A DNA stretch of 64,000 nt, from NCBI GenBank assembly GCA_018401695.1, contig JAGYKD010000001.1, positions 1,428,016 through 1,492,015 of the forward strand. Direction: 5' to 3'. This stretch comes from Flavobacteriales bacterium. GTDB lineage: Bacteria; Bacteroidota; Bacteroidia; CAIKAF01. The notes beneath the pieces were generated by a model that saw only the letters and a list, made by a program, of their open reading frames with translations, was not told where the DNA came from and searched no databases. Position numbers and translations under genes: made by a program. Below are positions 18,312 through 62,066 of the stretch, piece after piece. The number at the start of each line of letters is the position of its first letter. Position 1 is the first letter of the stretch.

Positions 18312-18791
18312 ATGGAATTAAAAGAAATCCAGGATCTCATCAAGTTTGTTGCCAAGAGCGGTGTCTCTGAAGTAGAACTTGAAATAAATGGGACCAAAAT
18401 CGTAATCAAAACCCAGCCTAAAGAAAAAGAGGTTCAGGTAATTGCTGCACAAGTCCCTCAGGCGCACACCGCTGCTCCTGCCCATGCTCCGGCACCGGTA
18501 ACACAAACCGCCCCTCCGGCTTCCGAAAAACCCGCCGATGACGACAGCAAGTACATTACCATTAAGGCACCTATGATTGGTACCTTCTATCGGAGACCTT
18601 CTCCCGATAAGGACCTGTTTGTAAACGTAGGCGATGAAATTAAACCCGGCTCCGTTATTTGCATCATCGAAGCCATGAAACTCTTTAACGAAATCGAAGC
18701 CGAACTTACCGGACGCATCGTTAAAGTGTTGGTAGATGATGCATCGCCCGTTGAATACGATCAGCCTTTGTTCTTGGTTGACCCCTCTTAA
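18312..18791 (+). CDS. accB: Acetyl-CoA carboxylase biotin carboxyl carrier protein
   Basis: 159 aa. The N-terminal helix pair ([24 protein letters not shown]) is followed by an Ala/Pro-rich linker (about residues 48-75) and a C-terminal biotinyl domain with [17 protein letters not shown], in which Lys123 of the EAMKL motif carries biotin. It shuttles carboxybiotin between biotin carboxylase and the carboxyltransferase for malonyl-CoA synthesis. The accC gene follows after 32 bases, the standard accBC pair. accA and accD are not in the window. Confidence 0.95.
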
Positions 18792-18823
18792 CCGGGAATT
18801 TCGTAGGACTTAAACCCATTGCT

Positions 18824-20164
18824 TTGTTTAAAAAAATTCTAATTGCCAATCGCGGTGAAATCGCCTTACGCGTAATCCGCACCTGCCGAGAAATGGGCAT
18901 CAAAACGGTGGCCGTATACTCTACTGCCGACCGCGAAAGTCTGCATGTGCGCTTTGCCGACGAAGCGGTGTGCATTGGGCCTCCCTCCAGTAAGCAATCG
19001 TATTTGGATATGGCCAGCATTATTGCCGCTGCCGAAATTACCAACTCCGATGCCATTCACCCGGGCTACGGCTTTTTGTCCGAAAACGCTAAGTTTTCTA
19101 AAATTTGCCAAGAACACGGCATTAAATTTATTGGCCCCAGCCCCGAAATGATCGACGCCATGGGCGATAAAGCTACCGCCAAGGCTACCATGATCAAAGC
19201 CGGGGTCCCTACCGTACCCGGAAGCGAAGGCATCATCGATACCCTCGAAGATGCGCTTAAAGCAGCAAAGGATACCGGTTACCCCGTCATGATTAAAGCC
19301 ACTGCCGGCGGAGGAGGGAAAGGGATGCGCATCATCCGTTCCGACGAAGACCTTAAAGTCAACTGGGACAAGGCCAAGAACGAAGCCGGTGCCGCCTTCG
19401 GAAACGATGGCATGTACATGGAAAAATTCATCGAAGAGCCTCGGCACATCGAAATCCAAATCGCCGGTGACCAGCACGGAAAAGCTTGCCACCTCTCCGA
19501 AAGGGATTGCTCCATCCAACGCCGCCACCAAAAATTAGTAGAAGAGGTGCCTTCTCCATTTATGGACGATAAACTCCGCGAAAAAATGGGCAATGCCGCC
19601 ATTAAAGCAGCACTTGCCATCAACTACGAAGGTGTAGGTACCGTTGAGTTTCTTGTCGATAAAGACAAGAATTTTTACTTCATGGAGATGAATACCCGAA
19701 TTCAGGTAGAGCATCCCATTACCGAAGAAGTAATCAATTTTGACCTCATCAAAGAGCAAATCAAAATTGCCGCCGGTTACACCATCTCAGGCAAAAACTA
19801 CTACCCTCAACGGCACGCTATTGAGTGCCGCATCAATGCCGAAGATCCTTTCAACGATTACCGCCCGTCTCCCGGAAAAATCACCAACTTCCACGCTCCG
19901 GGTGGTCATGGCGTTCGGGTAGATACCCACGTATATGCCGGATACACCATTCCACCCTATTACGACTCCATGATTGCCAAGCTCATTGTAATGCACCAAA
20001 CCCGTGAAGAGGCCATCAATAAAATGCTTCGAGCATTGCAGGAGTTCGTTATCGAGGGCGTCCATACCACCATCCCTTTCCATATTCAATTAATGAACAA
20101 CGAGGACTTTAGAAAAGGGGTGTACACCACTAAATTCTTGGAGACCTTCGAACTCAAAAAGTAG
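18824..20164 (+). CDS. accC: Acetyl-CoA carboxylase, biotin carboxylase subunit
   Basis: 446 aa ATP-grasp enzyme that carboxylates biotin on AccB using ATP and bicarbonate. Signatures are [20 protein letters not shown] at the N-terminus, [13 protein letters not shown] (Gly-rich ATP loop), [17 protein letters not shown] (catalytic Glu and Arg region) and ECRINAEDP. The family N-terminus lines up exactly with a TTG codon at 18824. No ATG or GTG is available before the in-frame stop at 18803-18811, so TTG is the likely start, perhaps damping expression relative to AccB. The only other option is an ATT two codons upstream. Confidence 0.95.
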
Positions 20165-43801: not shown

Positions 43802-43859
43802 TGAGTGTTGCATGATGCATAATTAACCGCACACCGTTGAACCTCCACGTTTGGTTGGG

Positions 43860-44003
43860 GGCGCCTTATCCTGCTGTCAGCGGTAGTGCCCCCTCTCCGG
43901 CCCACGGTCTGCGGCCGCTCCGGGGTCTTCGTTCCTCAGCCTCCTCGCCTGGCCGCATACCGGGGCCGGAGAAGGGGTCAGCTACCTGCTTCCATCAGGG
44001 GCG
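43860..44003 (+). repeat. Family B repeat, left copy
   Basis: About 144 bases with GCCTTATCCTGCTGTCAGCG, CGGCCGCTCCGGGGTCTTCG, TTCCTCAGCCTCCTCGCC and TCAGCTACCTGCTTCCATCA. It is matched at roughly nine bases in ten by the reverse complement of 61831-61973. It abuts the left hairpin of the transposase element. Confidence 0.8.
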
Positions 44004-44007
44004 TGTG

Positions 44008-44522
44008 CCCACGGTTGAAACCGTGGGTTTTTGTATATTAAAGGGTTCCTCTGCCCCATATTGTTTGTTTATGTCACATTCATCAGCGCAGCTTTGGGTG
44101 CATGCTATTCTAGGGACGAGGTTTCGGCGCTCTCTAATTACTGAAGATAGAGAGGAGGCCTTGTACGATTTTATTCGTGCTCAACTGGAGGGTATGGGTT
44201 GCAAGGTTCGGATCATTCATGGGGTTTCCGACCATATTCATTGTTTGTTTTTATTGCATTACACCAAGTCCATTGCAGAGGTTATGAAGCAAGTGAAAGG
44301 AAGCAGTTCGCGGTATATGAATGCGGATGTGCGTATGGAAGGTAAGTTCAAGTGGCAAACAGGCTATGGAGCTTTTTCTGTATCGCATCATAGTTTGGAT
44401 GTAGTGCACCGATATATCCAGAACCAAAAGATTCGGCATGGGGAAGGGAAGGGGTGAGATGGCCCACGATTAAATCGTGGGTTCTTGTGGGTTTTGTTGT
44501 GGCCCACGATTAAAACCTTGGG
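44008..44522 (+). mobile_element. REP / Y1 transposase element (IS200-IS605 superfamily, RAYT type)
   Basis: A short Y1 transposase gene between hairpins. The left hairpin is CCCACGG-TTGAAA-CCGTGGG followed by TTTTTGT (44008-44034). The right hairpins are CCCACGAT-TAA-ATCGTGGG followed by TTCTTGT (44463-44488) and an imperfect copy CCCACGAT..CCTTGGG (44503-44522). No target-site duplication is expected for this transposition chemistry. The exact ends are estimated from the hairpins. Confidence 0.8.
44071..44457 (+). CDS. REP-associated tyrosine transposase (Y1_Tnp domain)
   Basis: 128 aa from the ATG at 44071; the open frame extends upstream into repeat sequence but homology starts here. It shows the HUH motif DHIHC (His55, His57) and the single catalytic Tyr115 in VVHRYIQNQ, plus LWVHAILGTRFRRSLI and VKGSSSRYMN, all typical of TnpA-like Y1 transposases. 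It cuts and joins single-stranded DNA at hairpins through a 5'-phosphotyrosine. Both metal/active-site motifs are intact, so it may be functional. Flanking hairpins with the same CCCACG stem are its likely substrates. Confidence 0.88.
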   Translation: MSHSSAQLWVHAILGTRFRRSLITEDREEALYDFIRAQLEGMGCKVRIIHGVSDHIHCLFLLHYTKSIAEVMKQVKGSSSRYMNADVRMEGKFKWQTGYGAFSVSHHSLDVVHRYIQNQKIRHGEGKG

Positions 44523-50021: not shown

Positions 50022-50526
50022 ATGTACATCGTAAAAACCGGTACAAAGCACCTTTGATTTTAATCCTGAAACGGAAGGAACTTGGAGCAGCCCACAGGCC
50101 TCCGGTCTCATTCGTATTGAGGGAGATTCCCGTCAGGGCTTTCGGTTGCATATCGGTAACGAAAGCTATGCTGCTTTTTTGGTGGAAGCCGACTATCGCC
50201 AAAAGCGCTTTGTATTTAGCATTCAGAACCGGCGTATAGAGGTTTTTGTAGAGGACGAAAAAGATCAGGCCATAAAGGCATTGGGTTTGCCGGTAGTTAA
50301 GCAGAAAAAGGTGGATGTGCTTAAGTCACCTATGCCGGGAATGGTGTTGGAAGTACTCACCAAGCCCGGACAAACCGTCTCCAAGGGTGAGCCTTTGTTG
50401 ATTTTGGAAGCCATGAAAATGGAAAATGTCCTTAGGGCTGCCGGCGAAGGGGAAGTAAAAGAGGTGTTGGCAGAAGCCGGTACAGCTGTTGACAAGAATC
50501 AGGTGCTCATAAAATTTGTAGAATGA
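50022..50526 (+). CDS. Biotin/lipoyl-binding carrier subunit of an acyl-CoA carboxylase, with a +1 frameshift at CTT TGA
   Basis: Read from the ATG at 50022 the frame gives [11 protein letters not shown] and then a TGA at 50055. Skipping one T gives [12 protein letters not shown].. and continues in the open frame to 50526, for 167 aa in all, the normal length of these carriers. The C-terminal domain has [20 protein letters not shown] and [10 protein letters not shown] with the biotinyl Lys. The shift site CTTTGA is the same as in the RF2 gene, but the strong upstream Shine-Dalgarno is missing. Alternatives are a one-base sequencing or assembly error (an extra C or T) or a shortened protein from the TTG at 50146. 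It overlaps mvaD by 4 bases. Confidence 0.75.
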
Positions 50527-51563
50527 GCGAGGTACTGCATACGCACTGGAAGAGTCCATCCAACATTGCCCTTATAAAGTATTGGGGCAAAACAGGACAT
50601 CAAATTCCCTGCAACCCATCGTTGTCGATTACCTTAGACCAGGCCCATACCGATACCCGAATAGAAGCGCTGCCCAAACAGGGTGATTTTCCTGAACCGG
50701 AATTGTACTTTGAAGGCAAGCGAAACCTGCCGTTTGAAACCAAAATTTTAGGGTTTTTTCAGCAGATTAGCGAACGTTTGCCGGTGGTAACTTCCCACAA
50801 ATTGCTGATACATTCCGAAAATTCTTTTCCGCATTCGGCAGGAATTGCCAGTTCGGCTTCCGCCATGAGTGCATTGGCCTTAGGGCTTTGCGAATTGCAG
50901 CGGCAACTGGACGGCGGGGCGCGCGATGCTGCCTTTTTTGCTTTGGCTTCGGATATAGCACGTTTGGGCAGTGGATCTGCCTCCAGATCCGTATATGGCG
51001 GTTTGGTTTCCTGGGGCAAACATGCCGATTTGCCCGAAAGCAGCGATGAAGTAGCTGCTCCCTTGCCTTTTGAGGTGCACGAAGTGTTTACCAAGCTGCA
51101 CGACGATATTTTGATTTTAGACCGTTCGCCTAAAAAGGTTTCTTCTAGAGCCGGACACGGCTTAATGAAAGGAAATTTGTTTTCGGAAGTACGGTTTAAG
51201 CAAGCCCATCAACACTTTTCGGAATTGTTGGAGGCGCTAAAAACCGGAGATTGGGATCGATTCATTGCCATTACGGAGTCAGAGGCTTTGAGCTTGCATG
51301 CTATGATGCTAACTTCAAACCCTCCGTACCTGTTGATACAGCCGGAAACGGTTAAAATAATTAAAGAACTTCAGGACTTTAGACAACAATCGGGGCTACC
51401 TGTCTGTTTCACCCTCGATGCAGGACCAAATGTGCATCTGATATATCCGGATACTTGCCGGGAAAAGGTGCAGGAGCTGTTGTCGATGTGGCAAAACGAC
51501 TCGAGTTTTTCCTTCGAAGTTTTGCCTGATGTTATGGGAAAAGGGCCAATTTGCTTGAAATAA
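50523..51563 (+). CDS. mvaD: Diphosphomevalonate decarboxylase
   Basis: 346 aa GHMP-superfamily enzyme that makes isopentenyl diphosphate from mevalonate diphosphate using ATP. The N-terminus [18 protein letters not shown] is diagnostic, with the ATP loop [20 protein letters not shown] and [19 protein letters not shown] (conserved Ser/Arg) following. The catalytic Asp lies in [10 protein letters not shown]. Its ATG overlaps the end of the biotin-carrier gene and its stop overlaps the mevalonate kinase start (TAATG), so the three are translationally coupled. Confidence 0.94.
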
Positions 51564-52522
51564 TGCCTGTTATGAATGACCAACATAAATCTTTCAAATC
51601 TAAGATTCTTCTTTTTGGAGAGTATGGGGTGATTCATAATGCCATGGCTTTGAGCATACCCTTTGAAGCCTTTGAAGGCTGTTTGACCTTTTCGCCGGAA
51701 CGACTTAAGCCGGGGGAAGCCAAAGCTTCTGCCAAGGCATTAAAAGCTTATGCCCGTCATTTAAAGGAGCTTGTTGAGGTCGATAAACTTCCTTTCGTTT
51801 TTGACATAGAAGCATTTGAAGAGGATTTGGCCAAAGGCTTAGTCTTTGATTCTTCTATTCCACAGGGTTTTGGTGTGGGAAGTTCGGGAGCCTTGGTTGC
51901 CGCATTGTATGATCGGTATGCCTTGGAGAAAATTCCAAACAATCAGGTGATAAGCGGCCCGGAAACGGTTCGATTGAAAGACAGCTTTGCCAAGATGGAG
52001 AGCTATTTTCATGGAAAAAGTTCCGGAATGGATCCGCTGATTTGCTACTTAAGCGCCCCTATGTTGATTCGCAGCAGCGATGCCATTGATAAAGTTGGGC
52101 TCCCCGTTTCTTCGGCCACAGGAAAAGGCGGTATTTTTTTGTTAAACACAGGAAATCCGGGGAAAACACAACCTTTAGTAAACCTGTTTTTGGAAAAATG
52201 CAAGGAAGAGGGCTTTTTGCAGGTGGTTAAGGGCGAAATCATACCTTTTAGCGACAATTGCATTAAAGCTTTTTTGAAGGGCGAGGCTAGTGAGATGTTC
52301 GACAATATGAAAGAATTGTCGCGTTTGTTGCTGAGCTATTTGAGCCCTATGATACCAAGGCGTTTCCGGAAGGTTTGGCGCCGAGGCATTGAGACCCAAA
52401 GCTACTATTTGAAGCTCTGCGGCAGTGGAGGTGGTGGCTTTTTGCTTGGTTTTGCCGAGGATTTGGATAAAGCTCAAGAGGAGTTAAAGGAACACCAAAT
52501 AGAGGTGATCCATCGGTTTTAA
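51563..52522 (+). CDS. Mevalonate kinase (GHMP family)
   Basis: 319 aa from the ATG in the TAATG overlap (9 bases later is a second ATG; a TTG lies further upstream). Motifs are KSKILLFGEYGVIHNAMALS at the N-terminus, PQGFGVGSSGALVAALYDRY (ATP-binding loop), FHGKSSGMDPLICYLSAP (catalytic Asp region) and KLCGSGGGGFLLGF near the end. It phosphorylates mevalonate in the isoprenoid pathway and fits its neighbour mvaD; phosphomevalonate kinase is not in the window and could be the alternative identity. Confidence 0.85.
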   Translation: MPVMNDQHKSFKSKILLFGEYGVIHNAMALSIPFEAFEGCLTFSPERLKPGEAKASAKALKAYARHLKELVEVDKLPFVFDIEAFEEDLAKGLVFDSSIPQGFGVGSSGALVAALYDRYALEKIPNNQVISGPETVRLKDSFAKMESYFHGKSSGMDPLICYLSAPMLIRSSDAIDKVGLPVSSATGKGGIFLLNTGNPGKTQPLVNLFLEKCKEEGFLQVVKGEIIPFSDNCIKAFLKGEASEMFDNMKELSRLLLSYLSPMIPRRFRKVWRRGIETQSYYLKLCGSGGGGFLLGFAEDLDKAQEELKEHQIEVIHRF

Positions 52523-61710: not shown

Positions 61711-61830
61711 ATCTTGCGCCCCTGACCGATTGGAAGTTCATGACCTTTCGGTCCGCACAAATAGCTTGAAAAAACAAGGCCTCAACGGTGTACTATGGTT
61801 TAACTATTCCAAAAAAATAGGTACACTCCC

Positions 61831-61973
61831 GCCCCTGATGGAAGCAGGTAGCTGACACGGTTCCGGCCCCGGTATGCGGCCTGGCGAGGAGGCTGAGGAA
61901 CGAAGACCCCGGAGCGGCTGCAGACTGTGGGCTGGAGACGTGGCACTAACGCTGACAGCAGGAAAAGGCGGCC
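61831..61973 (-). repeat. Family B repeat, right copy
   Basis: Reverse complement of 43860-44003 with about nine in ten bases the same, including CCTGATGGAAGCAGGTAGCT and GCGAGGAGGCTGAGGAACGA. No transposase gene is next to this copy. Confidence 0.8.
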
Positions 61974-62066
61974 AAAAGAAGAAAAGAATCCATCCCTCAT
62001 CCTATAGAGACGGGGCCTCGCCACTGGCTTCTCCTAGGCAATTCGGAGACGGTGAATTGCCCGTTT

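Follow-up and report, generated by a model that had tools for sequence, protein, structure and literature searches.

The split carrier gene and its neighbours

We analysed a window of 64,000 nucleotides from a Flavobacteriales bacterium (G000), whose genome (2.99 Mb, 19 contigs, 99.8% complete) has a single copy of the biotin carrier gene considered here. The start and the body of this gene lie in different reading frames, and the following features describe the locus.

50022..50057, + strand: start codon and truncated frame of the carrier gene (ATG at 50022-50024, 11 codons, then TGA at 50055-50057)
50042, + strand: extra T relative to the sister species G002, the gene's only indel, outside any homopolymer and 10 bases upstream of CTTTGA
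50052..50057, + strand: CTTTGA, resembling the release factor 2 (RF2) site in looks and containing the TGA that ends the short frame
50035..50526, + strand: biotin carrier body, an open frame of 163 codons plus the stop at 50524-50526, under strong purifying selection
50523..51563, + strand: diphosphomevalonate decarboxylase, with an ATGA overlap with the carrier stop

The coordinates and frames agree with a sequence-only reading of this DNA, in which the frame from 50022 ended at the stop in CTTTGA and the carrier continued one base over. A TAA at 50032-50034 closes the +1 frame, which is then open from 50035 up to its stop, with no ATG, GTG or TTG found between 50035 and 50146. Joining frame 0 to the carrier body needs a shift somewhere within 50035-50057. 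The product of the +1 frame is a biotinyl carrier (Pfam Biotin_lipoyl, E 2.7e-18) which retains the lysine of AMKM, and both this biotinyl domain (EAMKMEN) and the length shared with its congeners match the Bacteroidota acyl-CoA carboxylase biotin carrier subunit of about 165 residues, from which it differs in that the start and body occupy different frames. Readthrough or recoding of the TGA was rejected, as many more stops follow in that frame, and a second carrier copy elsewhere was rejected since the genome has only one.

The carrier, the diphosphomevalonate decarboxylase and a mevalonate-kinase-like gene form a tight tandem with overlapping ends (window 50523-52522), in an order common to G002, G001, G003 and G005. 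Elsewhere in the window, at roughly 18558-20143, lie open frames for accB and accC of fatty acid synthesis, two genes identified from their domains and from standing next to each other. A second biotin carboxylase and two large carboxyltransferases are encoded in the genome as well, and these partner carboxylase genes are open. Besides AccB, the broken carrier is the only small stand-alone carrier found in the genome, and thus it probably serves the second biotin carboxylase and the two carboxyltransferases of an acyl-CoA carboxylase.

An extra T relative to the sister species

Comparison was made with five other species of the genus, of which G002 is the nearest (92% nucleotide identity to the window over 3 kb, with identical gene order). 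The ATG and first six codons are the same in both species, and in G002 the carrier gene is one uninterrupted frame. The window reads GGTACAAAGC where G002 reads GGACAAAGC, a difference of one additional T at position 50042, whereas the sequence-only reading had looked for the suspect base at 50050-50056. This T is the sole coding gap in an 8-kb block of six genes, the other gaps being intergenic, and G002 is an intact close relative one indel apart, the pattern of an isolated indel.

The two sequences are identical from the inserted T to past CTTTGA, so the hexamer is also present in G002, where it is read in frame as ACC-TTT-GAT (Thr-Phe-Asp). This alignment indicates that the supposed slip site is coding sequence exposed out of frame, and no slip site. 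The sequence-only reading had named in advance, as part of its counter-evidence, relatives with an uninterrupted frame and no CTTTGA; the relatives are uninterrupted, yet the hexamer is kept in G002 inside that frame.

The carrier is also uninterrupted in the four remaining congeners, two of which share the Tyr-to-Phe spacing of G002 in the alignment. An uninterrupted frame in G002 and in more distant congeners, with matching spacing in two, is by parsimony the ancestral state. Carrier matches were found in 39 of the 40 genomes searched, and no second carrier broken like that of the window was seen among these 40. Nor was the RF2-like break present in any but the window's gene among about 109 carriers from relatives and public genomes; the few without an early ATG have open frames of at least 164 codons and, judged by eye, plausible GTG or TTG starts. 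A scan of genome contigs found no further genome of the same species, and no relevant report of a frameshifted biotin carrier in Bacteroidetes came up in a literature search.

We conclude that the carrier gene has very probably been broken by an isolated one-base insertion private to the window sequence, either a recent mutation or an assembly error. Ribosomes starting at 50022 would leave the carrier frame at 50042, and the first out-of-frame stop that they then reach would be, by happenstance, the TGA within a conserved coding CTTTGA. In a cell truly carrying the extra T, the product would be lost or very low. Counted against this reading is the coincidence of a CTT-TGA junction after a random insertion: one-base insertions simulated in the window genes placed the first stop in CTTTGA in only 3.4% of cases, and in 9% of those where the first stop was TGA. 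The window holds 63 copies of CTTTGA against 48 ± 7 expected. The hexamer at the carrier's first stop is thus a modest coincidence for which selection is not needed. A C TTT GAx (Phe-Asp) coding stretch can mimic the RF2 frameshift site after one upstream base shifts the frame, and a quick test is to ask whether a close relative carries the same hexamer out of frame.

The carrier junction compared with prfB

The programmed +1 frameshift of prfB, which encodes RF2, shares with the carrier a CTT-TGA slippery stop early in the gene and a downstream frame at +1. The published prfB consensus is AGGGGG, three bases and CTTTGAC (PMC12421855), and the prfB of the window's own genome agrees with it, having the genuine motif GAGGGGGTCACTTTGAC and the RF2 body in the +1 frame (L134 position 1527; contig C1 near 1162266). 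The same motif is common to the three congeners checked (G001, G002 and G005), and the shift is reported in 72% of Bacteroidia prfB genes (PMC8710568). In contrast, the carrier has no Shine-Dalgarno-like AGGGGG three bases upstream of CTTT, the upstream sequence being GGTACAAAGCAC as opposed to GAGGGGGTCA in prfB, and TGA is followed by T instead of C. Both of these departures had been noticed in the sequence-only reading, and we see no purine-rich Shine-Dalgarno sequence here. The carrier junction, made by a private insertion, is conserved in no relative.

An insertion that is real may be partly rescued by accidental, unselected +1 slippage at CTTTGA, so that a little full-length carrier is made. 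Slippage in RF2 occurs on the same CTTT, and frameshifting that compensates for problem indels has been described as a class (PMC5009743). However, the carrier lacks the stimulatory Shine-Dalgarno sequence, and in Flavobacterium johnsoniae even the complete prfB motif reportedly shifts poorly (PMC12421855), leaving such a rescue improbable. It is slightly harder still to credit that the insertion is real and recent and that the conserved carrier survives through incidental +1 slippage at a coding CTTTGA, a glimpse of how an RF2-like shift might arise.

Internal initiation might instead supply a shorter carrier, comprising the biotinyl domain, if ribosomes began at TTG 50146 or at some other non-ATG codon of the open frame. 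The frame is indeed open from 50035, and a start at TTG 50146 would yield 126 residues with the whole biotinyl domain. We regard this as very unlikely, since the ATG corresponding to 50022 shares its frame with the body in G002, and conserved residues are already present upstream of 50146.

A programmed, regulatory RF2-like shift would have the P-site tRNA-Leu slip from CUU to UUU at a slow UGA to give ...KHLDFNPE..., with termination at the UGA tuning the carrier level. The junction is exactly CTTTGA, the carrier body is strongly constrained, and a shifted product would be of the right length and align without gaps to the G002 carrier. Nevertheless, G002 and every other congener have one frame, the same CTTTGA is plain coding sequence in G002, and the carrier lacks the two flanking signals that the prfB of its own genome and those of three congeners possess, in a motif described as hyper-conserved (PMC12421855). 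We therefore reject programmed frameshifting on the sister species and the prfB control, and consider it highly implausible. Among the three options offered by the sequence-only reading this one falls, with relatives uninterrupted and CTTTGA at no frame junction in G002, while a fresh mutation and a consensus error remain candidates. Not much is expected of transcript slippage at the A5 run (50033-50037), which is too short.

Age and origin of the extra base

Downstream of the insertion, the carrier body differs between the window and G002 by 34 synonymous and 2 nonsynonymous changes. Its dN/dS of 0.013 is the lowest among six neighbouring genes, and on this measure no decay of the body has yet begun. 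A gene unconstrained through the whole lineage should have gathered about 79 nonsynonymous changes (364 sites × half of the dS of 0.43). Set against the 2 observed, this suggests that constraint on the carrier has been absent for no more than a few per cent of the lineage time, and the lesion would thus be either very recent or a consensus error.

An error-ridden assembly was rejected, as nearly all of about 160 orthologous ORFs, aligned over 185 kb of coding sequence, stay in frame, and no other conserved gene showed a clear single-base break of its frame. The script used for this comparison has a 24-base threshold and skips the carrier, where 20 bases precede the insertion; a separate comparison flags it. 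Three other flagged ORFs were set aside. The G002 ORF in region A differs only by a 5′ extension of non-coding appearance, while that in region B is a small, poorly conserved ORF with 80% nucleotide identity and several phase changes. The third, a 145-codon ORF in G000 (contig C1 1418631-1419065, 9 kb before the window), retains only the final ~110 codons of a gene that is intact, with 522 codons, in G002, and looks like a truncated remnant after rearrangement. The assembly is thus generally sound, and the lesion would be an isolated error or else a mutation of very recent date.

We give a consensus error about an even chance, and a very recent mutation a little under that. The position of the extra T outside a homopolymer is unlike the usual platform error, which tips the balance slightly to a real mutation. 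Conservation of the gene, together with partner carboxylase genes that are open, points toward an error. According to a GeneTack survey, most such singletons, where homologues run across them, are expected to be sequencing errors (PMC3711429). The carrier resembles this singleton indel or sequencing-error class in occurring in a single genome, with no conserved site, homologues that span the junction and no recoding signal; nothing of substance sets it apart, CTTTGA at its stop being a coincidence.

If the lesion is real, the strain would retain AccB but lose the only other small stand-alone carrier it has. The diphosphomevalonate decarboxylase is likely to be translationally coupled to the carrier, and, given the ATGA overlap, early termination could lower its translation.

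A palindromic element between genes (window 44460-44502; CCCACGATTAAATCGTGGG plus an incomplete second copy) is partly missing at the same place in G002. Two dispersed repeats of ~150 bases (window 43859-44003 and 61820-61980) are both 91-93% identical to G002 contig C13 94595-94755.
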